40,570 bases of DNA. Source: Nitrospirota bacterium (GTDB lineage: Bacteria > Nitrospirota > Thermodesulfovibrionia > Thermodesulfovibrionales > JdFR-86). The position numbers were made by a program, and so were the translations under genes. Of this stretch, positions 9,620 through 38,500 are shown in pieces. Every line of letters starts with the position of its first letter. Within the stretch, counting starts at the first letter, position 1. The stretch is from positions 1 through 40,570 of the forward strand of contig JARRLN010000006.1 of NCBI GenBank assembly GCA_037386965.1. The letters run 5' to 3'. The notes below the pieces were generated by a model that made no database searches, was not told the origin of the DNA, and was given only the letters and a program-made list of their open reading frames with translations.

Positions 9620-10963
9620 ATGGACGCTGACCCGTACGTATTAGAGGATGGCTCGCGAATCGCCGTTATCGGAGGTGGGCCCACCGGTTCCTTCTTCAGC
9701 ATCTTCGCTCTCAAGATGGCAAAGATGCTCGACAAGCAAATCAGCGTCACCATCTTCGAACCCAAGGATTTCACCCGAGACGGCCCCATCGGATGCAACC
9801 ACTGCGGCGGCATCATTTCCGAGCTCCTCGTGCAGACTCTGGCTATTGAAGGCATCAACCTGCCGGATTCGGTCGTCCGGAAGGGCATCAATTCCTATCG
9901 TCTCCACACGGAAAAGGGCAGTGTCCACATCGCCACGCCGGCACTGGAGAAAACCATAGCGACCGTTTATAGGGGGGGCGGACCCAAGGGCATCATCGGC
10001 CGGGGGAAGGAAAGCTTCGACAGGTTTCTCCTCATGGAAGCCGTCAGGGACGGAGCCGAGCACCGTCCCCTGAAGGTCGACAGGGTGGAACTGAGGGAAG
10101 GACGGCCGGTGCTTTTCTCCAAAGACCGCGAGGTCCTCGATGCCGACCTCGTGGTCGGGGCCTTCGGTGTCAACAGCCGGTCGGCGGAAATGTTCGAGCC
10201 GCTCGGCTTCGGATACAGGAGCCCGAAGACGGTGAAGACGGCCATTGCCGAAATCGCGTTGAGCGAGGACGTCATGGCGGAATACTTCGGCGATTCCATC
10301 CAGCTCTTTCTTCTTCCGATGAAGAACATAAAGTTTGCGGCCATGATTCCCAAGGGGACCTACGTGACCCTTTGCATCCTCGGCAAAGGGATGGATGCCA
10401 AGACCGTCGAGCGCTTTCTGGAGCACCCCGTCGTCAGGCGCGTCCTGCCGGAAACCATTCCGTACAAGGTTGGATGCCGCTGCGTTCCCCTGATGAATGT
10501 CCGGGCTCCGAAGAGGCCCTTCACCGACAGGGTGGTCCTGTGCGGCGACGCCGGTTCCACCCGGCTTTTCAAGGACGGCCTCGGCGCCGCTTACATCATG
10601 GGCAAGGCGGCGGCGCGGACGGCCGTTTTTCGGGGAGTGAGCAAGGAGCATTTCAACAGTGACTACCACCGGGTATACAGAAGCATTATCACGGACAACG
10701 GGTTCGGGAGGCTCCTGTACATGGCCACCGACCTGTACCGGAACTATGGGACGCTGACGAGCCTTATGCTCGATGTCGTCCGAGCCGAACAGGAGAGCCC
10801 GGAGAAGGCCAAGCATCTGAGTTCCATCCTCTGGGACATGTTTACGGGGAATGAACGGTACAAGAATGTGTTTTTCAGGACCCTGAGCCCCGGGCTCAAC
10901 GTCGACCAGGCGGGGGCCTTGGCAAAAATCCTTGTGGGAAGGGGGCGCCATGGCGGAAGGTGA
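9620..10963 (+). CDS. Geranylgeranyl-reductase-like FAD-dependent oxidoreductase
   Basis: This 447-residue flavoprotein of the geranylgeranyl reductase / PHBH-like superfamily has an N-terminal dinucleotide-binding motif (AVIGGGPTGS, residues 15-24), a CNHCGG segment near residue 60 and the second FAD motif VVLCGDAGSTRLFKDGLGAA near residue 303. Relatives reduce isoprenoid chains or oxidise aromatic or lipid substrates. The substrate here cannot be told from sequence. ATG 9620 follows GGAGAG with about 9 nt; GTG 9614 in the same frame is an alternative but sits too close to that site. It overlaps the next gene by 14 bp, indicating one operon. A Pho-box-like promoter and a TATAAT-centred inverted repeat lie upstream. 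Confidence 0.82.
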   Translation: MDADPYVLEDGSRIAVIGGGPTGSFFSIFALKMAKMLDKQISVTIFEPKDFTRDGPIGCNHCGGIISELLVQTLAIEGINLPDSVVRKGINSYRLHTEKGSVHIATPALEKTIATVYRGGGPKGIIGRGKESFDRFLLMEAVRDGAEHRPLKVDRVELREGRPVLFSKDREVLDADLVVGAFGVNSRSAEMFEPLGFGYRSPKTVKTAIAEIALSEDVMAEYFGDSIQLFLLPMKNIKFAAMIPKGTYVTLCILGKGMDAKTVERFLEHPVVRRVLPETIPYKVGCRCVPLMNVRAPKRPFTDRVVLCGDAGSTRLFKDGLGAAYIMGKAAARTAVFRGVSKEHFNSDYHRVYRSIITDNGFGRLLYMATDLYRNYGTLTSLMLDVVRAEQESPEKAKHLSSILWDMFTGNERYKNVFFRTLSPGLNVDQAGALAKILVGRGRHGGR

Positions 10964-11813
10964 GCTTGGCAGGATGTACGCGGATGGCGAGGCCATTTGC
11001 AAAGAGGGGGAAAAGGGCAATGCGATGTACGTCATACAGTCCGGAAAGGTCCAGATTACAAAGAAAACGCCCACGGGTCAGATGAACATCGCCACACTGG
11101 GAAGCGGCGAGATTTTCGGTGAGATGGCCCTCTTCGATAAGTTGGAAAGGTCGGCGACGGTTACGGCCTCGGGCAGCGCCAGGGTGCTCAGCATCGACAG
11201 AAAGAAACTCTTCAGGTCCATAAGCAGGGACCCCACACTGGTTTTCAAGGTCCTGGAGTCCATGAGCCACCGCATACGGAGCCTTGATGAGCAGCTGGCA
11301 GAGCTGAAGAAGAGCAAGCTCGATGCAGACAGGATGTGCCTAAGCGTAGAGGAGTCCTGTGCCGTCACCCTGGAGAAAGCCAGAAATATCATCTCGGCCG
11401 ACAACGGCTCCATTATGCTGCTCGAGGAGGACACGAAGGACCTCGTCATCAAAGCCGCTTTCGGCACGGAAGCCGGAGAGAAGGTGCGTCTAACCGCCGG
11501 GGAAGGGTTGGCGGGGGCGGTGCTTTCCTCCGCCTCCGCCGAAATGGTCAACAACGTGTCGCTGGATACGAGGTTCAAGCCCGGGGCGATGCGGCTCCGG
11601 TCCATCCTCTGTGCCCCGCTGAAATGCGGGGACGAGGTGTTTGGCGTTATAAACCTGAGCAACAGCTCGGAGAGGCTTTTCAGTCTGGAGGACCTGAAAG
11701 TTTTGGATTCCCTGGCCTCGTACGCTTCTATCGCCATCGAACAGGCCAGGAGCTTCGCTCGCCTGGATGGCGCAACGGAGGCCTTTCTCAGGCGAGCCGG
11801 TGAGTTGCCTTAA
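10950..11813 (+). CDS. cNMP-binding / GAF-domain sensor protein
   Basis: This 287-residue cytoplasmic signalling protein has no DNA-binding domain. Residues 5-110 form a cyclic-nucleotide-binding domain whose phosphate-binding cassette is intact (FGEMALFDKLERSATV). A helical linker leads to a GAF domain at about 130-280 (GSIMLLEEDTKDLVIKAAFG, then GVINLSNSSERLFSLEDL). ATG 10950 follows GGAAGGGGG and overlaps the flavoprotein gene by 14 bp; the in-frame GTG at 10932 is a less likely start. It probably binds cAMP or a related nucleotide plus a second ligand and may regulate the flavoprotein by direct contact. The class III cyclase at 14297 is a possible source of ligand. Confidence 0.85.
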   Translation: MAEGELGRMYADGEAICKEGEKGNAMYVIQSGKVQITKKTPTGQMNIATLGSGEIFGEMALFDKLERSATVTASGSARVLSIDRKKLFRSISRDPTLVFKVLESMSHRIRSLDEQLAELKKSKLDADRMCLSVEESCAVTLEKARNIISADNGSIMLLEEDTKDLVIKAAFGTEAGEKVRLTAGEGLAGAVLSSASAEMVNNVSLDTRFKPGAMRLRSILCAPLKCGDEVFGVINLSNSSERLFSLEDLKVLDSLASYASIAIEQARSFARLDGATEAFLRRAGELP

Positions 11814-14296: not shown

Positions 14297-16567
14297 ATGC
14301 CCAACAAGCGGGCCCGGAATGGACATATAAGGTCTCCCCTCCTGAAGGCTCTGCTCTTGGGGCTTCTGGTAGGGCTGGTGGGCCTCGTGGCCAGTCCCTT
14401 GCATTTCGTCCTCGGTCTCGAGGAAAACGTCGGGTTGGGGATGCTCTTTGCACTGAGGGGCGCGCGCGCGGCGCCCCCCGATGCCGTCGTCGTCAGCATC
14501 GACAAGGAGTCCTCCGAGCACCTCGGCATCCCGGACAACCCGGATAAGTGGCCCCGGTCCCTCCACGCGCGGCTCACGGACGCCCTGAAGGCCGCCGGCG
14601 CGGAGGTCATTGCCTTTGACGTCCACTTCATAGAGCCGCGTTCGCCTGAGGACGACCGCCTTTTCGCGGAGGCCTTGGACAGGGCGGGCAACGTGGTGCT
14701 TACCGAGCCCATCAAGATGAAGGAAATTCCCGCGGGAGGCGGAAACTCCGGAGAGTGGAATCACAACCTCATCCGGATAGTCCGGCCCATAGAGATGTTC
14801 TCCCGGGCGGCCGTCGCCACGGCGCCCTTTACCCTTCCCCGCATACCGTTCAAGGTGAACCGGTTCTGGACCTTCGAGACGGCCGCGGGGGATTCTCCCT
14901 CCGTGCCCATCGTCACGCTTCAGCTTTACTCCATGCGGGTGTACGGGACGTTTTCCCGCCTGCTCGGGAAACTGGCTCCGGAGCTGGCCGCGGAAATACC
15001 TCCGGATGCCGCGGGGGCCATGAGGAGGGGCGTGCGGGACCTGACCAGGGACATCCGGGCCATCTTCGAGCGCAAACCCGAACTCGCCCGGTTGATGCTG
15101 AGGGAAGTCGCAAATTCCGTCTCGGCCACTCCGCAAGAAAAGAGGCTGCTTGCGTCCCTTATTATGATGTATTCTGGGGGCAGCAGCCGATACATAAACT
15201 ACTACGGCCCTCCGGGCTCCATCAGGACAATCCCCTATTATCGGGCGCTCGAGATTGCCGAAGGCAAGGACCCCGGAGTCGACCTCCGGGGAAAGGCGGT
15301 CTTTGTGGGGCTCTCGGAGGTCCTGCTCGCCGAAAGGAAGGACAGCTTCTATACCGTCTTCTCCCAGGCAAACGGCACCTTCATCAGCGGGGTGGAGATC
15401 GCGGCCACGGCGTTTTCCAACCTTTTGACGAACACGCCCGTCAGGCCCCTCGGCCTTCCGTCTCACATTGCCGTCCTTCTGCTCTGGGGGGTCCTCATGG
15501 GCGTCGTATGCCGCGTCTCCCGGGTGGGCATGGCCGCGGCAGGGGCCCTGGGGCTGAGCGCTCTGTACCTTTTCGTGGCCGTGCATCAGTTCAAGGCTGG
15601 CAATGCGTGGTATCCCCTGATTGTCCCGCTTTTTGTACAGGTCCCTCTCGCTTTCGTCGGGGCGGTGCTCTGGAACTACAGGGACGTGAACAAGGAGCGC
15701 CGGAACATAAGGACGGCCTTCGAGCACTATCTCCCCAAGGACGTGGTCGACCAGCTCTCCCGGGACGTGGCGCATATCCAGACGGGCAGCAAGGTCGTCT
15801 ACGGGGTCTGCCTTTTCACCGACGCGCAGCAGTATACCGAATTTTCCGAGGCCATGGAGCCGCATGAGCTGGGCAAGTTCATGAACCGCTATTACGAGAC
15901 CATGTTCACGCCCGTCAAGGAGCAAGGCGGCTTCGTCTCGGGCATCATCGGCGACGCCATGCTTGCCCTGTGGGTGTCCACGCGTTCGGAGACGGCCCTG
16001 AAGGAGAAGGCATGCCGCGCGGCGCTGCAGATTAACGGGCAACTGGAGAGATTCGACGAACAGCCCGAGGCCCGGAGGCTCAAGACCCGCATCGGGCTGC
16101 ACTGCGGGCAGATACTCCTGGGCCATGTGGGCGCCCTGGACCACTATGAGTATACCCCCATGGGGGACATCGTCAACACAGCCTCGCGCATCGAGGGGCT
16201 GAACAAATACCTGGGGACGAATATCCTCGTATCCGAGGACGTGGTGGACCAGATAAAGGGCTTCCTGACCAGAAAGATGGGAAGCTTCCGGGTGAAGGGG
16301 AAGATGAAGCCGGTCGCGGTCTATGAGTTGGTCTGTCGCCTTGAGGATGCCGATGAGCGGCAAAGGCAGGGGTGCCAGGCCTTTGTGGAGGCCCTGAACG
16401 CCTTCGGGAGGGGCGCCTGGGATGAGGCCGCCGGGAAATTTCAGGGAACGTGCCGGTGCATGGGGGAAGACCAGGCCTCGGAGTTTTACCTGCGGCTCTG
16501 CGAGGATTTCAAGAAGGCCCCGCCCGAGGCGGAGTGGGACGGCATCGTCGTCATGGAGAAGAAATAG
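14297..16567 (+). CDS. CHASE2-domain class III nucleotide cyclase
   Basis: This 756-residue membrane protein makes a cyclic nucleotide in response to an extracytoplasmic signal. TM1 is at about residues 15-37, a periplasmic CHASE2 domain runs to about 380 (VVSIDKESSEHLG, AFDVHFIEPRSPEDD), several TM helices lie at 389-460 and the catalytic domain spans about 500-690. The metal-binding Asp residues are in CLFTDAQQYTEF and GDAMLALW, and the transition-state Asn and Arg are in DIVNTASRIEG. The purine-selecting Lys of typical adenylate cyclases (KxxGD) is replaced in GFVSGIIGDAM, so substrate choice is uncertain. The Shine-Dalgarno site before ATG 14297 is poor. The FecR-TPR-barrel gene follows within 130 bp, a pairing I recall from other Gram-negative genomes. 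Confidence 0.9.
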   Translation: MPNKRARNGHIRSPLLKALLLGLLVGLVGLVASPLHFVLGLEENVGLGMLFALRGARAAPPDAVVVSIDKESSEHLGIPDNPDKWPRSLHARLTDALKAAGAEVIAFDVHFIEPRSPEDDRLFAEALDRAGNVVLTEPIKMKEIPAGGGNSGEWNHNLIRIVRPIEMFSRAAVATAPFTLPRIPFKVNRFWTFETAAGDSPSVPIVTLQLYSMRVYGTFSRLLGKLAPELAAEIPPDAAGAMRRGVRDLTRDIRAIFERKPELARLMLREVANSVSATPQEKRLLASLIMMYSGGSSRYINYYGPPGSIRTIPYYRALEIAEGKDPGVDLRGKAVFVGLSEVLLAERKDSFYTVFSQANGTFISGVEIAATAFSNLLTNTPVRPLGLPSHIAVLLLWGVLMGVVCRVSRVGMAAAGALGLSALYLFVAVHQFKAGNAWYPLIVPLFVQVPLAFVGAVLWNYRDVNKERRNIRTAFEHYLPKDVVDQLSRDVAHIQTGSKVVYGVCLFTDAQQYTEFSEAMEPHELGKFMNRYYETMFTPVKEQGGFVSGIIGDAMLALWVSTRSETALKEKACRAALQINGQLERFDEQPEARRLKTRIGLHCGQILLGHVGALDHYEYTPMGDIVNTASRIEGLNKYLGTNILVSEDVVDQIKGFLTRKMGSFRVKGKMKPVAVYELVCRLEDADERQRQGCQAFVEALNAFGRGAWDEAAGKFQGTCRCMGEDQASEFYLRLCEDFKKAPPEAEWDGIVVMEKK

Positions 16568-16693
16568 TCGAGGTTGCTACTGAGGGTGTGCTATAGTTCA
16601 TGCGCTAGGGTTTTCCCGAGTTTCCGCTGTGAAGGTGAAGATTAACTGGTGCGTAATGGATCTTTTGAACAGAACGAAAAAGGGGATGGGCAC

Positions 16694-19600
16694 ATGAAAA
16701 AAGTCCGGTTTCGCCTGTGGGGGGTTTTCGTCTCTTTAAGCTTCATTATAATCCTTGCTCCGAGCCTTGCGGCGGCCGGGACATGCGAGAAGTGGGCGGC
16801 CAAGGTTGTCTCCGTGCAGGGGACGGTCGAAGTGCGCCAGGAAGGCCAGACCCAGTGGCTTCCGGTCAAGCCGGACGACACGTACTGCCCCGGTGACGTC
16901 ATACGCGTGGGGGAAAAAAGCCGGGCGGACCTGGCGCTGAGCAACCAGCCCATTGTCCGTCTGGACGAAGGCAGCACGCTCGTTCTGGGCGGCCTCAAGG
17001 ACGAGCGCACATCCGTGGTGAACCTGATTGACGGCGCCCTGTATTTCTTCAGCCGCGTGGTCCGGAACCTGGAAGTGCATACCGCATTTGTAAACGCCGG
17101 CGTCGAGGGGACCGAAGGGCTGGTCAGGGTCGAGAACAGGAGCACGTTTATCCTCATACTCGAGGGAAAGGTGCTGGCATCAAACGATGCGGGGAGCGCG
17201 ACGCTGACCAGCGGCCAGGCCGCGCTGACTGAGGAGGGCAAGGCGCCGGAGCCAAAAGTCGTCGTGCGCCCTTGGGATGAAGTGCGGTGGGCCATATACT
17301 ATCCTCCTCTCATTTATTATCGTCCCGCCGATTTCGCCGGCCATCCCGAGGGAGACTGGCGGACACAGGTCATGGAGTCCCTGAAGGCCTACTGGGCCGG
17401 CAACATCGCCCAGGCCTTCGCCCGGATTAAGATGGTACCGGAGGACATCCAGGACCCCCGCTTCTTCATCTATCGAGCCTCTCTGCTCCTTACCGTTGGC
17501 CGCGTCGAGGAGGCCGGCAAGGATGTGCAGCGCGTTTTGCAACTGGCCCCCGGAAACAGCACCGCCACGGCCCTTCAGTCGGTCATGGCCGTGGCCAGAA
17601 ACGAGCGGGAGAAGGCTCTCGAGCTGGCCAGGAAGGCCGTGGAGGCATCTCCGGAGTCCGCCGTGGCACGGGTGGCCCTCTCCTACGCTCAGCAGGCAAA
17701 CCTGAATCTCGACGGGGCCCTTGAGAGCTTGAAAAAAGCGGTGCAACTGGAGCCCGAAAATGCCCTGGCCTGGGCGCGGCTTTCGGAGCTCTGGCTCTCC
17801 TTCGGCAAGCTGGGTAATGCCCTGGAGAGCGCGCAAAAGGCCGTGGCCCTGAACCCCGGCCTTTCCAGGACACAGACCGTGCTGGGGTTTGCGTACCTGA
17901 TGCAGGTCAAGACGGGGAAGGCCGCCGAGGCCTTCCGAAAGGCCATCGGGCTCGACCAGGGTGCACCCCTCCCCCGTCTCGGCCTCGGATTGGCCATGAT
18001 ACGGGACGGGGACCTCGACAACGGCAGGAAACAAATCGAGATTGCCGTGAGCCTGGACCCCGACAACGCCCTCATCCGGAGCTATCTGGGAAAGGCCTAT
18101 TTCGACGAGAAGAAGGAGAAGCTGGCCGGGCGCCAGTACACGATGGCGGAGGACCTGGACCCCCGGGACCCCACGTCCTATTTTTATGCTGCCATATTGA
18201 AACAGACGACGAACCGCCCGGTGGAAGCCCTGCACCTTATGCAGGATGCCATAAAGAAGAACGACAACCGGCTCGTGTACCGGTCGAGCCTGTTGGTCGA
18301 CCAGGACCTCGCGGCCCGGAGCGCCGGCCTCGCCAGGATTTACTCGGACCTGGGCTTTCAGCAACTGGGCCTCGTGGAAGGCTGGAAATCAGAAAACACA
18401 GACCCGTCCAACTACTCCGCGCACAGGTTTCTGGCCGATGTCTATTCCGCTCTGCCTCGCCAGAAGATCGCCCGGGTGAGCGAGCTTCTTCAGTCGCAAC
18501 TGATGCAGCCGCTGAACATCACTCCCATACAGCCGAGCCTGGGCCAGAGCAACCTCTTCATCCTCGAGGGCGCCGGCCCGGGGGCGCTTTCCTTCAACGA
18601 GTTCAACCCGCTGTTCTCCCGGAACCGAATTGCGCTACAGGTCAGCAGCATCGTGGGCGAGAACGGCACGATGGGCGAAGAAATGACCATCTCGAGGCTG
18701 TATAACAAGACGTCCGCCAGCGTGGGACAGTTCCACCACGAGACGAACGGTTTCCGGAAAAACAGCGACGTCAACGATGACATTTACACTGTCTTCTTAC
18801 AGCAGGAGCTCACCCACAAGACAAGCGTGCAGGCTGAATACAGATACCGGAAGCTCAAGAGAGGAGACGTCGCCCTGAGGTTTTTCGAAAACCCGTTCCC
18901 TTCCCAAAACTCCGGTTTCCAGCCCGGCCTCAGGCAGTCGGATAAAACCTCGTCGGTGCGTCTGGGCTTCCACCACGCCTTTTCTCCGGGCTCCGACCTC
19001 ATCGGCAATGCGATGTATCAACACGCGGACCGCGCTGAGTTCAACAAAGTGGACTTCCCGGCCTTTACAATCGCCCCTTTTCCTTTCCGAGAGGTACGTG
19101 AGAGAGACGGTGATGAGAATGCCCGCGGCGGAGAGCTTCAGTATCTCTACAGCTCGAAATACGTCAAGGCTACCGGCGGCGGGGGACACTTCGACATAGA
19201 CTCGGGCGAAGTGAGAACCGATGATGGCTTCAATGCTTCCGGGCCCGTTCCGATTTTCTTAGGTTCTGCATTTGCTAATGCCGGTGATCCGACTGCGGAC
19301 CACGCGGATGTGGACATCGACACCCGCCATAGCAATGTCTATCTTTACACATACATCAACTACCCCAAGATTGTGACCTTTACCATCGGAGTAAGTGCGG
19401 ACTTCTTTGACTCTGAAACGGTAACCAGCATCTCGGGGTTGCCCGACCTCCACGAGAAGATCGATAAAAATCAGGTCAACCCGAAATTCGGGATTACCTT
19501 GAATCCTCTTCCCGGCACGACCATCCGCGGGGCCGTGTTCAGGACGTTGAAGAGATTGCTGATTACTGATCAGACCCTCGAGCCCACCCAGGTGGCGGGC

Positions 19601-20212
19601 TTCAATCAGTTCTTTGACGATGCCAACGCCGCGGAGGCATGGCGCTATGGCGGAGCCGTGGACCAGAAATTCTCCAAAGACGTATACGGAGGTGTGGAGT
19701 ATTCCCTCAGAGACCTGCCGGAAATTCCCTTTTTTAATAATGTGACCGGTAAGATGGATAGCGCGGACTGGCACGAAAAATTGGGCCGGGCCTACCTTTA
19801 CTGGACACCCCATGATTGGGTGGCCCTCAGGGCTGAATATCGCTATGAGGAGTTTGACAGAGATGTAAAATTCACCTTCAATGTAAAGGAGCTCAAGACG
19901 CATTCCGTTCCCCTAGCGGCCAATTTCTTCCACCCGTCGGGCTTGAGCGCAGGCGTGCAGGCCACGTATTATAATCAAGAGGGCGATTTTGAGACACTTG
20001 AGGCTCCCATTGGTGTCCTTACGCACGGTGAAGACAGCTTTTGGCTTTTCGATGCATCACTGGGCTATCGTCTGCCCAAGAGGCACGGCTTCGTCACCGT
20101 GGGGGCCAAGAACCTGTTTGACAAGGATTTCAAGTACTTCGACGTCGATTTCCAAAACCCGGCGATACAGCCCGGCAGGTTCTTTTTTGTGCGCGCCACT
20201 TTGGCCATTTGA
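16694..20212 (+). CDS. FecR-domain / TPR / outer-membrane beta-barrel protein
   Basis: This 1172-residue envelope protein starts at ATG 16694 after AGGGG; the in-frame codon at 16649 would place 15 residues before an obvious signal peptide (KKVRFRLWGVFVSLSF, cleavage near AAAG). Residues about 30-190 form a FecR-like domain (VVSVQGTVEVRQEG, VGEKSRADL, AFVNAGVEGTEGLV). About 215-560 are TPR repeats with A/L-rich helices and P at repeat ends. From about 610 alternating beta-strand sequence forms a barrel ending in RFFFVRATLAI, similar in style to TonB-dependent receptors but without a plug or TonB box. It lies directly after the CHASE2 cyclase, so the two may form one envelope-sensing or secretion unit. 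The ligand or cargo is unknown. Confidence 0.87.
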   Translation: MKKVRFRLWGVFVSLSFIIILAPSLAAAGTCEKWAAKVVSVQGTVEVRQEGQTQWLPVKPDDTYCPGDVIRVGEKSRADLALSNQPIVRLDEGSTLVLGGLKDERTSVVNLIDGALYFFSRVVRNLEVHTAFVNAGVEGTEGLVRVENRSTFILILEGKVLASNDAGSATLTSGQAALTEEGKAPEPKVVVRPWDEVRWAIYYPPLIYYRPADFAGHPEGDWRTQVMESLKAYWAGNIAQAFARIKMVPEDIQDPRFFIYRASLLLTVGRVEEAGKDVQRVLQLAPGNSTATALQSVMAVARNEREKALELARKAVEASPESAVARVALSYAQQANLNLDGALESLKKAVQLEPENALAWARLSELWLSFGKLGNALESAQKAVALNPGLSRTQTVLGFAYLMQVKTGKAAEAFRKAIGLDQGAPLPRLGLGLAMIRDGDLDNGRKQIEIAVSLDPDNALIRSYLGKAYFDEKKEKLAGRQYTMAEDLDPRDPTSYFYAAILKQTTNRPVEALHLMQDAIKKNDNRLVYRSSLLVDQDLAARSAGLARIYSDLGFQQLGLVEGWKSENTDPSNYSAHRFLADVYSALPRQKIARVSELLQSQLMQPLNITPIQPSLGQSNLFILEGAGPGALSFNEFNPLFSRNRIALQVSSIVGENGTMGEEMTISRLYNKTSASVGQFHHETNGFRKNSDVNDDIYTVFLQQELTHKTSVQAEYRYRKLKRGDVALRFFENPFPSQNSGFQPGLRQSDKTSSVRLGFHHAFSPGSDLIGNAMYQHADRAEFNKVDFPAFTIAPFPFREVRERDGDENARGGELQYLYSSKYVKATGGGGHFDIDSGEVRTDDGFNASGPVPIFLGSAFANAGDPTADHADVDIDTRHSNVYLYTYINYPKIVTFTIGVSADFFDSETVTSISGLPDLHEKIDKNQVNPKFGITLNPLPGTTIRGAVFRTLKRLLITDQTLEPTQVAGFNQFFDDANAAEAWRYGGAVDQKFSKDVYGGVEYSLRDLPEIPFFNNVTGKMDSADWHEKLGRAYLYWTPHDWVALRAEYRYEEFDRDVKFTFNVKELKTHSVPLAANFFHPSGLSAGVQATYYNQEGDFETLEAPIGVLTHGEDSFWLFDASLGYRLPKRHGFVTVGAKNLFDKDFKYFDVDFQNPAIQPGRFFFVRATLAI

Positions 20213-23804: not shown

Positions 23805-24014
23805 GGGGGAAAGCGGGGCGTGTGCTTTGTTTGCATGGGGAGGACGGGGCACAATGAGGTGTTCCCGGTTGGCGGTGGGCTGTTCCCTTCCGGGCGATGG
23901 TGTCATGTCCATTGCTGTCTCACGAAACATAATCCCTTCTTTCATCGTTTCCCTCAGAGTTTTTCTGCTCTCCTCTCCGACGCGAACTTCTCTCAACCCG
24001 AAAAGGAGGAACCT

Positions 24015-24239
24015 ATGGAAATCGATGTGCGGGGTTTAAGCCACCCCGAACCCTTGCAGATTGTTCGTGAAGCCATACGGAACATGTGAGTTTCGTGCGA
24101 GCACATCGTGGTGTCGGTCGACACCAGTGAAAGCAAGAGGCTGAAGAGTTTCGCATCCATGTCGGGCTGCCAGGCCGAGATCTCGGAGGCAGACGGGTAC
24201 CGCATCGTGAAGTTCATGGGAAAAACCTGCAAATGTTGA
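24015..24239 (+). CDS. TusA-like sulfur-carrier protein with in-frame TGA: candidate selenoprotein
   Basis: An ATG at 24015, 5 nt after a strong AGGAGG, opens a 74-codon frame. Residues 1-24 match the start of the TusA/SirA fold (MEIDVRGLSHPEPLQIVREA). Codon 25 is TGA (24087-24089). The same frame continues with VSCEHIVVSVDTSESKRLK and IVKFMGKTCKC to TGA 24237, giving the expected second half of the domain. Reading the TGA as selenocysteine gives a UxxC redox motif. The usual TusA active-site Cys (CPxP) is His here (SHPEP), so chemistry may have moved to residue 25. A hairpin with a GGUC loop lies 26 nt downstream. The family carries sulfur, or selenium in YedF-like relatives. The alternative is a nonsense-mutated pseudogene; the coherent second half, the UxxC and the hairpin favour recoding. 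Confidence 0.6.
24102..24129 (+). promoter_or_regulatory. Candidate bacterial SECIS element
   Basis: TGGTGTC (24109-24115) pairs perfectly with GACACCA (24120-24126) around a GGTC loop. CAC (24102-24104) and GTG (24127-24129) can extend the stem below a 4-nt bulge. The loop begins 26 nt after the TGA, within the range known for bacterial SECIS hairpins. The E. coli fdhF element also presents GGUC in its apical loop and has a bulge below the upper stem. Confidence 0.55.
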
Positions 24240-24314: not shown

Positions 24315-25271
24315 ATGAAAGCTCTGCGGCGAGGGAATAGCGAAGCATACAAAGAAATGCTTCCTTCCCGACTCAGGAGCTACTGTTACTTTTCCTGCCT
24401 TTCGGATGAGGCTCTGCGGGAGATTGTGGCACGTTTGCAGGATGTGAAATACTCCGCCGGCAAGAAGATAATCGACAAAGGGGCTCCCGGCGATTCCTTC
24501 TACTTTGTCCGCGAGGGAGAGGTGAACATTTTCAAGAAGACCCCGGGAGGCCGGGACGCTTTTCTCTCCACCGTGGGAGGCGCAGAGGTATTCGGCGAGA
24601 TGCCGCTGGTGACGAGTTCTCCTCGCGCCGCGACGGTCATCGCAAAGACGGACGTCAGCCTTCTTCGCCTTCTGAAGAGGGATTTCGACAACGTGGTGCT
24701 TGCGGACTCCATGGCGAAGAAGCGCACGGACGAATATGCCTACCTTAACCAGCTGAAAGCGCTGGAACCCTTCGCTCCCCTTGAACTGGCTCGGATGATA
24801 TCGCTCTTCGTGAAAGCGGAGCAACGGAGGTATTCCCCGGGCGATACCATCATAACCCAGGGAGACGCAGGAGATGTATACTACATCATCCGGTCCGGCC
24901 ATGTTGTCGTGCTGAAGCAGATGCTCAAGGAGACACAGGAAGAAGTGGCCGTCTTGGGCGAGGGCATGGGATTCGGAGAGGAGGCTCTTCTCACCGGCGG
25001 CCCTCGGAGTGCCTCGGTAAAGGCGGTGGAGGAGACCGTGGTTCTGGCGTTCACGAAGGCGGACTTCGACCGCATCCTGAAGGCGTCTTTCCTCGAGGAA
25101 ACCCTTTTCGATGACATTGTATTTGACGAGTTTCCCCTTGGTGATATCCGGCAGTGTCAGCGCGAGGACTGCGACAATTATTTTCTCCGGGCCACCGCGA
25201 AAGAGAAGCGGTTCTGCTCGAACAAGTGCGGGTGGGTCGTTAGCGCCCGAGAAAGACGAAAAGAAAAGTAG
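24315..25271 (+). CDS. Tandem cNMP-binding domains fused to a CGNR-like zinc finger
   Basis: This 318-residue cytoplasmic regulator starts at ATG 24315 after GGGAGG; the same frame is open back to TGA 24237, with a weaker TTG at 24270. Two cyclic-nucleotide-binding domains follow each other, at about residues 25-145 (cassette FGEMPLVTSSPRAATV) and 150-265 (FGEEALLTGGPRSASV), both with the conserved Arg. The C-terminus, from about 278, is a zinc-binding CGNR-like finger: CQREDC, NYFLRATAKEKRFCSNKCG and a basic tail. CRP-family proteins use a helix-turn-helix instead, so DNA or RNA binding through the finger is inferred. It sits 75 nt after the TusA-like gene and is probably co-transcribed with it. 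Confidence 0.85.
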   Translation: MKALRRGNSEAYKEMLPSRLRSYCYFSCLSDEALREIVARLQDVKYSAGKKIIDKGAPGDSFYFVREGEVNIFKKTPGGRDAFLSTVGGAEVFGEMPLVTSSPRAATVIAKTDVSLLRLLKRDFDNVVLADSMAKKRTDEYAYLNQLKALEPFAPLELARMISLFVKAEQRRYSPGDTIITQGDAGDVYYIIRSGHVVVLKQMLKETQEEVAVLGEGMGFGEEALLTGGPRSASVKAVEETVVLAFTKADFDRILKASFLEETLFDDIVFDEFPLGDIRQCQREDCDNYFLRATAKEKRFCSNKCGWVVSARERRKEK

Positions 25272-26563: not shown

Positions 26564-29500
26564 TTAAAACTCATAGCGAAGCTCTCCCATCACGCCGTGG
26601 GCCTCATAGTTTTCACGGATCTCTGCGCTGTATTTAAGACGCGTGCTAAACCCGTCCCTATTCATAAACGTAATGCCTGTGCCCAGTGTCGCGCCATTCC
26701 TTTCAACTTTTTGCCCCGCGATGGAAAACGCGGCATCGGGCGAGCCCTCAAGAGAAGCCGTGATAACTCGTTCGTCTATGTCGAAGTCGTAATTCCACGC
26801 TGCGCTTATCTCCGGCAGGAGGCTCCCGCCGTCCGTACTGAAGACGCGGGCGGCCCGCAGACCCACGCTAGATACAAGGGAGTCGGTCTTGCGGGCACCG
26901 ACGCTCAGGTTCAAGGCGCCGGCCCCGGTCTCTAGGAAAGCGTCTTCATCGATTAACACGTATTGAAGCGAAGCAAACGGCTGAAGGACCATACTGTCGA
27001 GGATGAAATTATAGCCGCCGCCTCCGAATGCGGAGAATACATCCCCGTCATGCTTGCTGCTTGCGGTGCTCGCCAGAGGGCCAATGACGATATCACGAGA
27101 ATTCGAGTAGTCCTGACCGCCGTATGACAGCACCCCTTCTATGTATCCCTTCTTCGAGAAATACGTTCCATAAATCGACCCGAAGATGCTGTCTATATCG
27201 CCGCGCCCCATGTCGTTGTGAAGGTCTATATCGGCGAAGGAGGCTGCGAGGCTGACGCCTGCGATGAACCTGTCACCGAAGGCATGGTCAAGGCCCAGCG
27301 TTAAGCCTGCGACGCTGAAGTCGAATCCGCTGAATCCTGCCTCTCCGTCCTGTTCGCCCCACTGCCCAAAGCCACGACTCCAGAGGCCGTAATCCGCTTT
27401 CTCTTTCTCATACTGCCCGTCGGCAAGGTGCCCGAAGCTAAAATCTGAACCATTGAAGGCAACCAGCAAAAGTTCCCTGCCCAGCGCTGGCTTCGTCCTT
27501 GAGGCATAAGAAGATGCGGCGGAGGCCATGCGTACGCTTTGCATGCGGTTAATGAGGGAACCGGCATGTTGCCGGGCCACGCCGTACGTGGTTCTTGTGA
27601 GGCCATCATAAGAGCCGGGGCTGAGGCTCAGGAAAGCGGCTCTGTATTGCTCCGGCTTGGGCAGGGCCTGGAACTCGCCGATGGCGACCGACAGATCTCC
27701 GGCCACCGAGGGTAGTATCTCATCAAGATGCTCGGCTATGGCTCTTTCGACCGGATTTGTTGCAACCGTTATAAAGCGCTCTGTAGAAACCTCTACCTCA
27801 ATGTTGTCGGGCTCACGATTGAGCTCAAAGCTCAAAAGCGGAGTGGCGGCTGGCACTCGTTCCTCAAGACTGCCGGTGATGGCGTCGGCAGACAGAACGT
27901 TAAATGTCGTGCCGTCGACATACGCTCCCGGGCCTCTCCTCACTTCCAGCGTGCCGTCCAGCGAAGCAACGCCGTCAACCTTCAGCATTCCACATTTTCC
28001 ATCGCCTTCAACCTGAGTAATGATTGTTAAACCGTCCTGGGGACTGTAATCATCCGTGACCTCCAGAATCCCTTCTTCTATTTCAAGCTGTTCAACGACG
28101 GGCATGACCGGGATGGTGAGGGTGCTGCTGCCCAGCTTGAGGAGATTCTCGAAACTCGTAGCCGACGCGGAGAATGTCTCCACATTGTCGAAAATGAGGG
28201 AATCGGTGCCCTCATTGCCCGTTACATGGCCCTTTACCTCCCCGCCGCTGCCAAAGGAAAGAGAGTCGTCCCCGAGGCCGAGGTCGATGTCCCCGGCCAC
28301 AAAGGAGTTCAGGATGACCGAATCATTGCCGCCGCCCGAGTTGATAGCCACTCCGGCGTAAGTCAAGAGGTTCTCGGTGACCGTCGTCGTGATGCTGCCC
28401 CGATTGATGATTACGTCGTCTCCCGAGCCGGTCCTGATGCCGACGGCGCTTGCCGAAGCAGACCCGTCCAGTACGAATTCAGTTCCAGCCGTGGCGACGG
28501 ACGACACGGTGATGACGCCGTCGTTTTCAATCCAGTTGTTTCCCCCGCCCGCATCGATGCCTATAGCCCACGCACTGGCTACCGATTTCATATGAATATG
28601 CAAGAAGTTGTCTCCTTCCGGGACAGTGGCATTTCCGGAGGCTTCCACAACGATGTCGCCTGTATTCAGTACCGTGTCGCCCTGAGCGCCCGTGGCGATT
28701 CCCGACGCAGAGCCTGACCCCGAGACGAGCGAGTCAAATGTAAAAGGGATAGGGCCGGAATAGTCCGCAGTCCCGAGGGCGTTTGCGCGGATGGTGCCCT
28801 GATTGCCGATGATGATGTTGCCGCTTGCTGCGGAAATGCCCGAAGCCAGCGCTCTGGCGATTCCGTCTGAGGAAACCGTGTGCGCCATCGACGCGCTGCT
28901 TACCTCTGCGCCCTCCTGTACCGTTATTGCCGCATCGCCGTTTCCTGCGTTTATGCCAAAGGCATCGGCAGTAGCAGAGTTCAGGCCGAACAAGGTACGG
29001 ACGAAGGAGACGCCCGAAGGCTCGTTGTCGGCCACCGCGCTTACTATTATCCTCCCGCCGGCATCAACGGCTCTTGTGCCTCCGTCGCCCAGCTCAATTC
29101 CCGTTGCGGTGGAGCTGGAGACCGTTGTGGCGACGTGGTCGTTAGAGCTCTGGAAGTAAGCGAATGCGCTGGAGCTGACGAAAATGTCCCCGCCGCTCGC
29201 TACGGCACTGTCACCGCCGGTTATTTTGATGCCGTAAGCCTTGTCGGCGCCCCGGGCGCTCATCGTCGGTTCGTCGTCCTGTGTCAGTGCGATGGACCGG
29301 GACGTAGCGTTTATTAGACCGGAGTTACCGATGTATATCGGTGTCAGGCCCGCACCGGCATAGATGCCGTAGGCGCTGCCGTAAGCGAATGCATGGGAGT
29401 AGGAGTCGTCATCGCCGTGGGCGAAGGCTGTGGCATCCGCCGTGGCATTGACATCGACTATCCCGGCATTTTCGACGCTCACGTCCCCGCCGTCGGCCAG

Positions 29501-32500
29501 GATGCCAAAGGCGTCCGCATAGGCCCACGTGTTGGAGGTTGAATCTCCTTCAGCAGTGGCCATCGCTCTGTCCGCCCATCCCCACGTGTCCGCATCGACC
29601 GTGGCTGTAGCCGCCACATAGCCGTGATTGACAATCTGGCTCTGCCCCGCACCGGCGTGTATTGCCTCGGCCCTTGCCGAGCCGATGGCCCACTCGTAGG
29701 TCCAGGCGTCACCACCTGTATCCGAATCCGAATTGCCCCTTGCATATGCCGAGACCGCGGCCGTGGCATTGACCATGCCGTAATTGTCGGCCCTATTAAT
29801 TCCGATTCCGCCCATGATTCCCGTCGCCAGCGCGGTGCCCGTGGCCTTGATGGGGTCATCGCTGTAGCCGCACCGGCCGTCGCCGTCAAACACCTGGCCG
29901 TTGGAGTCTGCAAACGCCCGGGCCGACGGGGAGGCCATGACGGATATCTCGCCGTTGTTGACCACCCAGTTTTCTGAGGCAACCTCGTCATTTGCGCCGA
30001 CGCTGATTCCGAAGGCGCTAGCGTTGGCAGAAGACCTTGCAAAGGAGTCCGCGTCCCCTGAGCCCACGCTGCTCGGACCGTCGGCGTCCACGACCGAGAC
30101 GACTTCGGGAGAGATGCCGAGCAGTATCCGTCCGTCGTTGACCACCTGATTCACCCCGGTGCCGGCCGAGATGCCGGCCGAGGTGAACGTGCCGGACGCG
30201 TAAGCCTCTCCGTAGCCGTCGCCGTCCACGGTCAGGGCCCCTCCGCCGTTAGGGTCAGAGACAGCGCTTACCTTGAAGCCCACAGTCGGGGACGTGCTGA
30301 TTGCCACATCTCCTCTGTTCGTGATTATATTTTCCCCGTCACCGGCCAGTATTCCCGTCTGGCCTGTCGTCGCATCCGCCGTAGCCCTGCCGTGGGCATC
30401 GGCATTGCCAAGGAAGAGGTCGAAATCACCGCCTTCGGCATCAACTCGCGCGAAGACGCCATCCAAGGTTCCGTCACCGTCTCCGTCCCTCGTGCCTGAC
30501 GACATCTCCAAGGAGATGATGCCCTCGTTGAGGATTTCGTTATCCCCGTCGCCCACCGACACGCCGGATTCCGTCAGACGGGCTGCCGCGTCTGCTGCGG
30601 CGAAGCCGCCCGAGTAGAAGAAGCCCGCCGAAGCGCTGTGAGTTGCCTGGGGCTCGGCGGTAGCCGTTACAGCAATGCCCGCGGAATTTATCACCACGCT
30701 ATTTGTGATTCCACCGTGAACGCCTGCGGCGTTGACGTCAACGGAGATAACGCCGCTGGCACTGGCCCCCCCTGCAAGGTCTGACGAGGCCCCGCCCAGC
30801 GATTTCGCCACGGCTGTCGCATCGACGGTAACGTCTCCCCTGTTCCATATATCATCGGAACCGCCTCCCCCGTCAAGCCCGACGGCGTTGCTGAATGCCG
30901 TGAGAAGTTCCGAGGTTGCCGAGCCTCCCGCAAAGCTCGCCGAGGTTGTGTTAGAGGTCAGATTCGCTGTTGAGCTTACATCGACGGCCCCTGCGTTTTC
31001 GATGGTGTCGTCGGCATCGCCGCCGTCCACGCCGACTGCGAACGCATCCGCCCGGATCTGAGAGCCTGCCTTCGCGCGTCCGAAGGTGGCCTTTCCTCCG
31101 CCTACGGAAGACAGCACCGACTCACCCCTGACGGTGATGCTCCCCTCGTTGAGTATCTGGTCCATCCCGCCGCCGCCGGCGATGCCCGACGAGCGGGTAC
31201 CGGCGGTCAAAAACGCCTTGGCCTCCTCTCCGCCGCCGAATACCCAGGAAGAGGCGGAGGATGAGGTCGTGGAATAGACTATGGCAGAGATGTCTCCCCG
31301 GTTGAGCACCGTATCGTCCCCTTCTCCGGCTTCGAGACAGACACCCTCCGTAACCGAGCCGATTATGGCGCTTGACGAAGCGCTGCCGAAAACCGAGTCC
31401 GCCTTGTTAGCAGAAGTCAGCGTAGCAGAGGCGCTTATCGCCATGGAACCGTCGCTCAGAACCCAGTCCTCTCCGCTCCCTCCTGAAATGCCTAAAGCGC
31501 GGGTCGAGGCCGTAAGCGTCCCCCCTGCCTGGCTGGTGCCGCCAAAGGCAAAGGACGAGCCTTCCATCGTAGCCACGGCCGAGGAGGATACCCCTACCGT
31601 AGAATGGCTCTCTATAATATCGTCTCCGCCGCCTCCCTCGATGCCCATGGCCGTGGTGTCCGCCGAGATGGTGGAGCTTGCGTAAGATGAGCCGAAAATG
31701 ACCGTGGCCTTGGTTGATGACGTAAGGTAAGCATTAGCCGTGGCTGAAATGCCGCCATTGCTCAGAATCCGGTCTTCCCCTTCGCCACCTGAAATTCCGG
31801 TGGCCTGCGTGTCGGCGGTAAGGGTCGCGGTTGCGCCCGCCGAGCCGGCAAAGGAGAAGGCCCCCTTCTGGACATCAAGGGTAGCGGTGGACTGGACGTT
31901 TACGGTGGATGCGCTCAGGATAACGTCGTCGCCCCCTTCACCCTCGATGCCCGATGCGATGGTCACCGCGCCGGTGGAGCCCCCGGTGTCCGAAGCCCCA
32001 AAGACGGCGGTCGAGTCCCCGTCGGAACTCAGTGAGGATGACGTCACCACGGACACCGCCCCGACTGAATTGATGATGTCGGCTCCCTCGCCGCCGGCGA
32101 TTCCCCGGGACCGGTTGTAGGCCGCAAGGACGCCGGTCTCGGATGACGCGCCTCCCAGGGTGAAGGAAGAGCCGTCCTGCACAAGCGTCGAGAACGAATT
32201 GGCGGTCACTGTGCCATAGTTGAAAATACTATCGTCGCCTTCGCCTCCGGTGATGCCCCCGGCGTAGCTCCGGGACGTGACGGTGGAAACCGAGTCCGCA
32301 TTGCCGAAGATGTTGATTGAGGATGAATCCGCCGTCATGTTTGACGTAGTCATGGCAAAGACATCCGCCTCGTTCTGGATGAAGTCCACGTCTCCCCCGC
32401 CGTCTATGCCCACGGCGTTCGTGATGGCGTTTGTTCCGGCATCAGCGATGGCTGAGCCGAGAAGGGTGACGTTCGTGACTTCGGAATCTCCAGTCGCGGA

Positions 32501-35500
32501 GCTTAAAACCGTAATATCCCCCGTGGTGAGAATCGCGTCCTTGCCCTCGCCGCCGGTTATTCCGGCGGCATCCGTCACCGCGTTCGCAGATGCCCCCGCA
32601 TCCGCAAAGCCACCGATGACGACGCCCACGCTCTTGGATTCCGTCGTCGTCTTCGCATCGACATAGATGGCGCCCTCGTTATAGATGGTGTCATCCCCGC
32701 CGCCGCCTTCCATGCCTCGCCCGAATGCCTGCACCAGGGTGTCGGCGTCTACGGAAAGGGCGCCAACAGGCGTGACATTGACTGACTTGGCCTGTCCCTG
32801 TCCGGTGCCGTATACCGTGATGTCACCGGTGCTCCGCATGTAGTCGTCGCCCTCTCCCCCGTGCATCCCGGTTGAGTTGGCCGCCACATTGGTGGTCGCG
32901 CCCGCATCCCCATATCCAAGCACCGTGACACCAACGGCCTGCGCATCTCCGAAGGCCGTCGCGTCGACAACGAGCGGTCCGGCGTTGTCGAGCATGTCGT
33001 TTCCGCCGCCGCCGTCAAGGCCCGTTGCGGCGGCGCGAATGAGGGTCTCAGCATCAGCGAAGGTGGCGCCGAGGAGGTTGACGTTTACGCTCACGGCCTT
33101 GCCCGTTGCGCTGCCCAGCACATCCACGGGGGCATTGTTCGAAATGGTGTCATCACCCTCGCCGCCGCCCATGCCCACTGCATTGGCAAAGGCGTTTGTC
33201 GAGGCGTCCGAGTTGGAGTATCCTCCTATCTGCACGACGGTGGCCGAGGCCTGGCCGTATGACGTGGCTGTCGAGGCTATTGCGGCCTCGTTGTAAAGAG
33301 CATCGGCGCCTTCGCCGCCATCCATGCCGGAGGAGAAGGAGGAGGCCGTTGTCGTTACCTCTCCCATGGCTCCCCCAAGGAGGTTGACGCTCACGGCTCC
33401 CGCATATCCTTGTGAATCGCTCTTGGCGACAATTCCACCCATGTTCGTGATGGTGTCGCTTCCCTCACCGCCGGAAAGGCCCCACGACTGGGACTGGGCG
33501 AGGATGTCCGCGTCGGAGTCCGCGTAGCCCAGGAGCCCGATGTTGACCGCAACGCTCGTGGCATCCGCAATTGTCGTCGAATTGGAAATCACGGCGCCCC
33601 TGCTGTTGATGACGTCGTCCCCGAGGCCGCCCTCAACGGCCCGGGCGTCAGCGCTGGCGATACTGCCGGCCTTTGCCAGAGCCGCGCCTCCGCCAACGCC
33701 GAGAGAGAGATTCGTCGATACGCCCGCGACATCCACGTCAGAACTGGCGTGAGCTTCGATTGAGCCGTAGCTCGTGATATCGTCACTTCCCTCGCCCCCG
33801 TCAATGCCCGCGGACCTGGCCGCAAGAAGAGTCGAGGCATCGGTAAGGGCCGCGCCCCCCGCGACGGGCGCCGCCGCAAGGCTCACGCTGACGCTTGCCG
33901 CATCCACTTCAGAGCGCGCATAGGACGTGACCTCCTTATGGGTGACAACCGTGTCGCCTCCTCCCCCGCCGCTGATGCCCGTTGCAGAGGAAAGGGCATT
34001 TGTCGTCGAGTCCGTCAGGGCCGCGCTCCCAGCAAATCCTTCCGCGGTACCCGTCACGCTGACCGTTACGTCCGTCGCGTCGATATCGCTGACGGAAGTG
34101 GCCGAAACGGTCTCTGCGCTCTCGATGGCGTCGTCCTGAGCCGCTCCGTCCAGACCCACCGCGTTGGAGATGGCCGTGTGCGACGACTTGGAGAGAGCGG
34201 CTCCCAGGGCGGCCCCCGTGCCTGCGAAGCCAAGACTGACTGACACGTCGGTGGCTGTCAGAAAGGAAGACGCCGTCGATGTGACGTGTCCCTCGCTTGA
34301 GACAATATCCATCCCGCTGCCACCCGTGACGCCCGTGGAAGAGGCGCTTCCCACAGAGGAGGTGTCCATGAGTGCCGCCCCGATGGCTGCTCCCGTGCCG
34401 GTGCCCGAGATATTTGCCGTGACCTGTGTGCTCGTGATATCGGACCAGGCGCCGGCAATCACGTCTCCGTCGCTCAGGACGTCATCGTCCCCGCCCCCGG
34501 CATCGATGCCCCAGGCGCGGGCGTCTGTCCGTATGCCCGATTCAGCCAGGGCCGCGCCTCCGCCCACTCCCGTCCCGGTTGCCCCGATGCCCACGCTCAC
34601 ACCGGTTCCGTCCACCTCTGCCGTGCTGAGCGCAAGCGTCGCGCCCCGGGTGTTTATGAGACTGCCCCCGTCGCTTCCTGCCACGCCCACGGCGGTGGCC
34701 GCTGCCGAGGCATCTGTGTCCATGAGGGCTGCGCCCAGGGCGGCTCCTGTACCCGCACCCGCGATGTTCGCGGTCACGTTGACTGCCGTCGTCTTGGCCA
34801 CCGCATGAGATGTTATATTTCCTTCTGTTACGACATCGCCTTCCACGCCGTCAATTCCCTTGCTCAGAGCCTCCGCTATTGTTTCAGAATCCGCCAGGGC
34901 TGCGCCCAGGGCAGCACCCGTGCCTGCAAACGTAAGACCCACGGTAACGCCAACGGAGTCCGTGTCCGCCGTTGCGCTTACGGAGATGTCCCCGCCGCTC
35001 TGGAGCGTGTCGGTCCCCGCTCCGCCCTGTATTCCTGTAGCCGTGGCCTTCGCAAGGGCGTCGGAGTCCATCAGGGCCGCGCCTATGCCAGCACCCGTGC
35101 CCGCGCCGGAAATACTCATGCCCACGCTGACGGCAGTGGTGTTTGCCAGAGCCGCGGTGTTAACGCCTTTGCTGAGTATGGTGTCATCCCCATCTCCGCC
35201 GTCCAGGCCTGTGGCCGTGGCATCCGCCGTGGTTTCCGCGCTTGAGAGGGACGCCCCGATGGCGGCACCAGTGCCCGCAAAGGCAGCGTTCACCGTAACG
35301 CCCACAGCATCGGTATCAGCCGTCGAGTTTGCGGTGACCGTCCCCGTGCTCTCGATGTAGTCGCTTCCGGAACTGCCCTTTACGCCCGTTGCGCTTGCTT
35401 TCGCCAGGGCATCGCTGTCCATCAGGGCCGCGCCTATTCCGGCACCCGTACTCACTCCCGAGATACCCACGCCCACGCTGACGGCAGTGGTGTTTGCCAG

Positions 35501-38500
35501 AGCCGCGGTGTTAACATCTTTGCTGAGTATGGTGTCGTCACCCTCTCCGCCGTCCAGGCCGGTGGCGTACGCATCCGCCGTGGTCTCGGCACGTGAGAGC
35601 GCCGCTCCGATGGCGGCACCCGTGCCCGTATAAGCAACATTCACCGTAACGCCCACCGCGTCTGTGTCAGCCGTGGATTTTGAAGTGACCGTCCCCGTGC
35701 TCTCGATGTAGTCGTTTCCGGAGCCGCCCTTTGCGCTCGTCGTGCTTGCCTTTGCCAGGGCGTCGCTGTCCAGCAGGGCCGCCCCTATACTGGCACCCGT
35801 ACTGGCCTTCTCAATCCCTACGCCGACGTTCACGGCAGTGGTGTTTGCCAGAGCCGCGGTGTTAACGTCTTTGCTGAGTATGGTGTCGTCACCCTCTCCG
35901 GCGTCCAGGCCTGTGGCCGCGGCATCCGCCGTGGTCTCGGCGCTTGAGAGCGCCGCCCCGATGGCTGCACCCGTGCCCGTATAAGCAACATTTACCGTAA
36001 CGCCCACCGCGTCTGTGTCAGCCGTGGATTTTGCAGTGACCGTTCCAGCGCTGAGAAGAGAGTCATTCCCCGTGCCTCCGCCGATACCCATGGCAGTCGA
36101 TGTAGCAAGGGCGGTTGTATTCATGAGGGCCGCGCCGAGGCTTGCCCCTGTCTTTGCTTTTTCAAAGCTCAGGTTTGCACTAACGGCCGTGGTATTGGCT
36201 ATGGCCCCGGCCGTCACATCGTGAGTCGCTATCGTATCGATCCCTCCGGCACCGTCCACACCGACAGCATGAGCCTCTGACGTTGTCCCCGAATTAGCGA
36301 GCGCCAGCCCGATTGCAGCGCCCGTATTTGCAATGCCAGCGCTTACAGAGACGCCCACCGCGTCCAGGTCGGACACCGCGATGGACCGTATCGTATCGGC
36401 ACTGGTAATGACATTATCGAGGTCATTGACCATTATCCCCGTTACATTGGAAAAGGCCAGCGACGATGTCTCCGTGATTGCCCCTCCCACTCCTGCCCCC
36501 TTGGACACGCCCTGCACGTTGAGGCCGACGCTCACTGCCGTGGTGTCGGCCCGGGCAGTGGAGTAGACCGTGTCCGCGATGACGTCGGCGTCCTCCTCGT
36601 GGGCATCGATGCCCACGGCATCCGCCATGGCCGTGCTTTCGGAGCGGGCCAGGGCGGCCCCGACAAGGAGGCCTTTCTGCTCGAACTGAAGGTTGGCCGA
36701 GACGCTGACGGCGTCAACGTCAGAGGTCGAAACGGCATTGACGATGCCTGAGCTCGTAATCGTCTCCGTACCGCTTCCACCGGTTATGCCCGTCGCCGAA
36801 GAGATGGCCGTGGCGGACGTATCGGTCAGCGCCGCGCCGATGGCTACCGGCGAGTTCATGAACCCCATGAAACTCATGCCCACCCCAACGCTCAAGGCGC
36901 CGGAGTGGGCCTCGGAGAAGATGGTTCCCGTGTTCAACAGTTGGTCGTCGCCCTCTCCTCCATCAATGCCGATGTCGGTGCTCTCGGCCCTGTTTTCTGC
37001 ATTGGCCAGTGCCCCGCTCAGGGCCAGCTTGCCTTCCTGCTTTATCTGGACGCTGGCGGACACGCTCACCGCGTCGTTGTCAGAGACCGCTGTCGTGTGC
37101 AGGTTTCCTGCATTCGTGATAGTATCATCATCCGTCCCGCCTTCAATGCCCACGGCACGGGAGGATGAAGTGGCCGACGCGTCCGTCAGGGCAACCCCTG
37201 CGGCGGCGGGTGCGTTGATGAATCCCTGAAAGTTCAGGCTCCCGCTTCCGCTTGTCGCCATGGACAGGGCCGATGATGTGAGGTCGCCCTCGTTGGTGAG
37301 GTCATCCCTCTTGTCCCCACCACTTATGCCCACCGCCCATGTCTGCGCCTGGGTGGAGGAACGGGCAAGAGCTCCCCCGACCGCGAGGAAACCCTCACCT
37401 TCTGCCTGAACGTCAACTGAGACGCTGGTCGAATCCACATCAGACGTCGCCGATGAAGTCAGAGAGCCCGTGTTGGTGATAACGTCTCTTCCCTCATCGC
37501 CGGTAAAGCCCATTGAATTCGCAATCCCGACAGCTGACGTATCCGCGAGCGCGGCCCCCACGGTCAGCTTCGTATTGAACCGGCCCTGCAAGGCGACGTC
37601 CACGCCGGTGCTCGTCGCATCGGAGAGGGCCGCGGACGTGAAATCCCCCGAGTTTGTCATGACGTCATCGCCGTACCCCCCTGTGATGCCCTGCACCTCG
37701 GATTCCGACCGGGTTTCTGAACGCGCCACCGACCCCTCCAGTAGGAATTTCCCTTTCGCCTTGCCCCAGGTAACGGAGACGCTCGTGGCGTCCGCATCGG
37801 ACGTGGCGTTTACGGTGGAAATTCCCGAGTTCGAGATGTCGTCGTTCTGCATGCCTCCCTCTATGCCCGTTGCGCTAGTCATTGCCACGGTTGAGGTATC
37901 CGATAATACGAAGCTAATGCTTCCTTCCAGGGGGAATTTCTTGTTCTTCAGGCCCGGCACCTTAACGCCCAGCTCCGAAATGTTCGCCGAGACGGTTACC
38001 GCAGAGGCGCTTGAGGAGGCGTCCACGTCCATGAGCCCTTCCTGCCGGATGACATCGGTCCCGCTTCCGCCGCTAATCCCCATGGATGTGGCATTGGATA
38101 TTGTAGCGGCGCTACCCAAAACAAGACCCGGAGTGGGGACCTTGAAGTCGAAGATGCCGACGCCGAGATTGGCGCTCGCCTGGGTGGTTTCGGACGTGGC
38201 GCGCGAGATGAGGGTGCCAGCGTTTGTAATGTCATCGTTCGCGTTGCCTCCGTCTATACCCAAGGCGTCGGCATGGGCCGTGATGCTGGCGTCTGCCAAC
38301 TTTCCGTTGACAATGAGGTCTTTGGTGCTGCCAGGGACCCCTTCGGATGCGATGGATACGCCAACGGAGGTCGCATCAGAGGATGCGACGGCGCTTACCG
38401 TCCCCTCATTCGTAATGGTATCCTTCTCATTGCCGCCTCTTATGCCCACGGCGGTGGCCTGGAGCGTCGTGCCTGCGTTGGCATTGCCCTTCTGGTCGAC

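Follow-up and report, generated by a model that had tools for sequence, protein, structure and literature searches.

In bacterial selenoprotein genes, a hairpin with a small, G-containing loop lies just 3' of the UGA (PMC1088965). An inventory published in 2026 counted 119 families and subfamilies of prokaryotic selenoproteins, with DsrE-like and rhodanese-like proteins in its Table 1, and described the physiological selenium donor to SelD as incompletely elucidated (PMC13188914). SirA-like and YedF proteins were linked to selenium metabolism earlier, those proteins having Cys and containing a DsrE-like domain (PMC2432076, PMC5322559).

The window, i.e. the whole stretch of 40,570 nucleotides analysed here, carries a TusA-like gene (24015..24239, +) with a predicted product of 74 residues and Sec at codon 25. 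Judged from its sequence and relatives, this is very probably a real gene whose in-frame TGA is decoded as Sec. The explanation as a whole, namely a genuine TusA-fold selenoprotein having a chalcogen or redox Sec/Cys site and a cyclic-nucleotide-binding protein as its partner, is put forward with high confidence.

The Gene and Its In-Frame TGA

The gene starts with ATG at 24015, downstream of a ribosome-binding site (AAGGAGG, 24003..24009, +), and ends with a TGA stop at 24237-24239 (+). Its frame translates as MEIDVRGLSHPEPLQIVREAIRNM-TGA-VSCEHIVVSVDTSESKRLKSFASMSGCQAEISEADGYRIVKFMGKTCKC-TGA. The first of these TGAs (24087..24089, +) is codon 25, and reading it as Sec creates the motif UVSC, with Cys28 (24096..24098, +) completing a UxxC pair. 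The match to the Pfam TusA model (PF01206) runs across this TGA with 29.5 bits against a cut-off of 28.6, placing the codon inside a conserved domain, as is required of a bacterial selenoprotein. A His codon (CAC, 24042..24044, +) is found where the CPxP motif of TusA has its catalytic Cys. A first-pass annotation of this DNA had described a TusA-fold frame with one TGA at codon 25 after which the same frame resumes, a strong ribosome site, a UVSC motif and the replacement of CPxP by SHPEP, and each of these was recovered here. The terminal TGA (codon 75) was also considered as a second Sec codon and was rejected because neither a hairpin nor a continuation of the protein is conserved there.

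Orthologous Family

Using the readthrough protein as query, a search of 230 genomes of the class identified an orthologous family of the window gene; across 396 sampled genomes from the phylum, all matches listed at E <= 1e-10 fell within the class. Of the 36 aligned members, 24 have Cys and two have TGA at codon 25, the Cys/Sec exchange looked for at the TGA of a selenoprotein gene, and the remainder have Arg (8), Ile (1) or Pro (1). As 10 of the 36 lack both Cys and TGA there, this residue is not indispensable throughout the family. PF01206 is matched by 21 of the 36 at E <= 0.01, and in the alignment (A3) no member retains the catalytic Cys of CPxP. Widely conserved features are an MSGC motif and a CxC at the C-terminus.

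The second TGA-bearing member (L031) belongs to a genome from another family of the class, G007, and reads MQIDVRGHDQKQALIKIRETMQDM-U-ASCDYVEVLV...GKTCKC. Among the aligned members the UxSC motif, and with it Cys28, occurs only in these two. They form a clade (support 97/90) that lies on the side of the tree where Cys members are associated with LysR_Sec and YedF, away from a TsuA-associated subfamily. The window genome also carries a Cys-bearing paralogue (G000:C24), which falls within the TsuA-associated subfamily. A TGA-containing match in G182 was left out of the count, its codon 25 being missing and Ns being present. In a scan of genome contigs with a single sequence as query, the two matches that were translated proved to be CPxP TusA-type proteins of Lachnospiraceae, and a search of plasmids found nothing.

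Hairpin Downstream of the TGA

Folding predicts a SECIS element at 24087..24135 (+), made up of the UGA, short lower stems, a bulge and an apical hairpin. The apical hairpin (24109..24126, +), supported by folding and by comparison with L031, is UGGUGUC-GGUC-GACACCA; its arms (24109-24115 and 24120-24126) form 7 Watson-Crick pairs and its GGTC loop (24116-24119) starts 26 nt past the TGA. The gene thus has a hairpin with a small G-containing loop just after its UGA, and the GGUC loop, offset, stem, bulge and lower stem proposed in the first-pass annotation agree with the folding.

A total of 12,428 TGAs from the window and related loci, including the orthologue locus in G007, were scanned for a loop 16-37 nt downstream. 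A GGUC loop carried by 6 or more Watson-Crick pairs follows only two of them, namely the TGA of the window gene and that of its orthologue, and the hairpin is therefore more than a chance occurrence. Relaxing the search to any 4-nt loop starting with GG gave 6 TGAs in all. The folding energy is mildly unusual (z = -2.5 over 71 nt and -1.5 over 51 nt), and an Rfam search did not find a SECIS match.

The hairpin of L031, AGGUGCU-GGUC-AGCACCU, has the same offset of 26 nt and the same 7 bp. Two loop-proximal pairs differ between the two genes by compensatory changes, with different residues encoded (VSVDT in the window, VLVST in L031), and the outermost pair is U-A in the window and A-U in L031. 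This covariation comes from one pair of sequences, as only two TGA-bearing members were found. Among the Cys members of the aligned family, none has a SECIS-like hairpin with a GGUC loop. One Cys-bearing member (L072, G070:C8:36109-36330, +) has a 6-bp hairpin with a UGUC loop at the same 26-nt offset, possibly a SECIS relic or a product of chance.

The SECIS of E. coli fdhF, which was folded for comparison, likewise presents an apical GGUC on a stem a short way past its UGA. The window element resembles it in this arrangement, but its upper stem lacks the bulged U and its lower stems are shorter and differently spaced.

Selection and Decoding of the TGA

The codon-position differences between family members are alike on either side of the TGA: second positions have changed least, and third positions have changed most in the majority of comparisons. 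This supports a protein-level constraint that persists past the TGA, although at such distances the pattern taken alone is still compatible with a very recent decay. A pseudogene, derived from TGC or TGT for Cys by mutation to TGA and now degenerating in its second half, would fit with TGA being one substitution away from both Cys codons and with the Cys-bearing paralogue in the same genome. It is nevertheless very improbable: a second genome has the TGA as well, in a gene of one supported clade with that of the window, the hairpin has been retained through compensatory changes, neither the UxSC motif nor the ribosome site is damaged, and the codons after the TGA vary in the same way as those before it.

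The ordinary reading of a TGA is as a stop, and in selenoprotein mRNAs generally termination competes with Sec insertion. On that reading only a 24-residue peptide would be made, with or without re-initiation downstream. Such a peptide would cover just strand 1 and helix 1, and the frame after the TGA is maintained as protein in two lineages, both of which make a true stop highly improbable as the explanation.

The window genome (2.54 Mb, 96.7% complete) encodes selA (590 bits), selB (363 bits), selD (362 bits) and a tRNA-Sec with the anticodon UCA. Its selD (L095, G000:C114:5168-6091, -) has an in-frame TGA of its own, within TCGUAAKIGP at the known Sec/Cys site of that protein, and a stable hairpin follows it. 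With selA, selB, tRNA-Sec and a TGA-bearing selD all present, the genome is very likely to make and use Sec. A tRNA-Sec is present in G007 too. Decoding of the UGA as some other residue, e.g. Trp, or its suppression independently of a SECIS is extremely unlikely; no support for either was found in the analysis, the relatives have Cys and not Trp at codon 25, and the UCA anticodon of the tRNA-Sec and the TGA of selD both speak for Sec.

The first-pass annotation had read the TGA as Sec and had named the sel genes, the homologues and the selection past the TGA as the places where this reading could fail. It held in all of them: selA, selB, selC and selD are present, most relatives have Cys at codon 25 while L031 shares TGA, motif and hairpin with the window gene, and the codon-position pattern continues across the TGA. 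In the mechanism proposed here, SelB and Sec-tRNA(UCA) would read the UGA at 24087 as Sec under the direction of the hairpin that follows it, and the product would be a protein of 74 residues with a Sec25-x-x-Cys28 pair.

Predicted Fold and Placement of the Reactive Residues

AlphaFold2 modelled the protein with a mean pLDDT of 86.9 and with strands at residues 2-4, 31-35, 53-59 and 62-68 and helices at 12-23 and 37-49; pLDDT was lower in the block of residues 21-30 (77) and in the tail (52). Among PDB structures, Foldseek placed a SirA-like protein and the TusA of the IscS-TusA complex highest (TM 0.70-0.80, E ~0.004). The protein thus combines a TusA fold and a PF01206 match with the loss of the catalytic CPxP Cys.

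In the model, Sec25 and Cys28 lie between helix 1 and strand 2, Cys52 lies between helix 2 and strand 3, and the CxC tail follows strand 4. From this order of strands and helices, these residues should gather at one pole of the molecule, opposite the loop between strand 1 and helix 1 that holds CPxP in TusA. The TusA-like family has given up the sulfur-carrying Cys of CPxP and keeps instead a Cys or Sec after helix 1, the MSGC Cys after helix 2 and the CxC. This cluster is most likely a redox or chalcogen-handling site in selenium or sulfur metabolism.

Gene Neighbourhood

Downstream of each of the two Sec forms is a gene encoding a tandem cyclic-nucleotide-binding protein; the one in the window lies at 24315..25271 (+). 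The two partners are 44% identical over 254 residues; that of G007 ends in a rhodanese domain, where the window partner (assigned by Pfam) has a CGNR-like zinc-finger tail that scores below the Pfam cut-off. For the remaining cyclic-nucleotide homologues with retrieved flanking sequence, no TusA-like match was found within ~1.5 kb. Several genomes of the class have cyclic-nucleotide/rhodanese relatives without a nearby TusA-like gene (L101-L105, L116-L118, L122), often as two or more tandem copies. In G007 (L057, 7232-11167, -), the cyclic-nucleotide/rhodanese gene is followed by a gene of 198 aa that looks sigma-factor-like by eye and has no Pfam match, and beyond it by genes for a zf-HC2 protein and a cyclase-CHAT protein.

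The window is rich in cyclic-nucleotide genes, as it also encodes a cyclic-nucleotide/GAF protein (10932-11813) and a CHASE2-adenylate/guanylate cyclase adjoining a FecR-TPR protein (14297-16567, + and 16649-20212, +). A single open frame of 4296 aa (26564-39454, -), with many GIDGGEGDDTI-type repeats and a C-terminus that appears autotransporter-like by eye, ends ~1.3 kb downstream of the cyclic-nucleotide gene.

LysR-type regulators are located beside Cys relatives; the one in G009 passes the selenium-metabolism model LysR_Sec (302 against 250 bits), and five further genomes have LysR homologues of 43-50% identity near Cys relatives. The yedF gene adjoins Cys relatives in G102 (192 bits, cut-off 110) and G077. 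A YeeE/TsuA-type transporter gene adjoins 16 of the 36 aligned members, and the one tested matched Pfam Sulf_transp with 238 bits while scoring below the NCBIfam TsuA cut-offs. These neighbours of the Cys relatives place the family in selenium or sulfur handling, a role to which they point without fixing the reaction. The sulfur or selenium carrier suggested in the first-pass annotation is therefore plausible from the neighbouring genes, but the classical TusA mechanism is argued against by the loss of the CPxP Cys.

The same selenoprotein could instead be a thiol/selenol redox switch or sensor for its cyclic-nucleotide-binding partner and not a handler of sulfur or selenium. Speaking for a switch are the redox nature of the UxxC motif, the absence of the CPxP Cys and the tandem cyclic-nucleotide-binding protein as the neighbour common to both Sec forms. 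Against this stand the LysR_Sec, yedF and TsuA/YeeE-type neighbours of the Cys relatives and the rhodanese domain of the G007 partner, all of which indicate sulfur or selenium handling, and we regard the switch as a real but less probable possibility. Judged from neighbourhood and topology, the adjacent cyclic-nucleotide-binding protein is most likely the co-expressed regulator or partner of the selenoprotein. A more tentative proposal, which may well not hold, is that the TusA scaffold, after losing its canonical sulfur-carrier Cys, gained at the opposite pole a selenol site (Sec25, Cys28, Cys52 and CxC) that would carry or sense reactive sulfur or selenium and report it to the cyclic-nucleotide partner, the two forming an undescribed selenium-signalling pair.

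Comparison With Known Systems

A TusA/PF01206 selenoprotein is not listed in Table 1 of PMC13188914, in the 2022 review PMC9312934 or in Table 3 of deep-Sep (PMC12013277), and NCBIfam has no model that names or matches a TusA-type selenoprotein. The family is thus absent from the published lists examined, though someone may still have noted such a protein.

The window protein resembles the DsrE-like and rhodanese-like selenoproteins in having Sec within a small fold of the sulfur-relay type and a bacterial SECIS, and it shares the UxxC motif with the DsrE-like ones; their folds are different, and PF01206 lies outside the families of that Table 1. With YedF (TIGR03527; TusA and C-terminal DsrE-like domains, selenium metabolism) it has in common the TusA-like domain, and yedF adjoins its Cys relatives in two genomes. 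Unlike YedF, it is a single-domain protein of 74 residues without the CPxP Cys, scoring 19.5 bits with the TIGR03527 model, for which the cut-off is 110. The Cys relatives that have LysR_Sec and yedF as neighbours mark out a small family that likely acts in selenium metabolism.

In fold and length the protein is like the TusA and SirA-like sulfurtransferases (PF01206; E. coli TusA, 3lvj_C; Desulfitobacterium hafniense, 3hz7), whose Pfam model it passes just over the cut-off. It differs from them in lacking the CPxP Cys and in having instead a Sec/Cys that follows helix 1, a Cys that follows helix 2 and a CxC at the C-terminus. If the selenoprotein reading is true, the TusA fold, a central scaffold of sulfur relay, would join the folds that carry Sec, with its reactive residue relocated.
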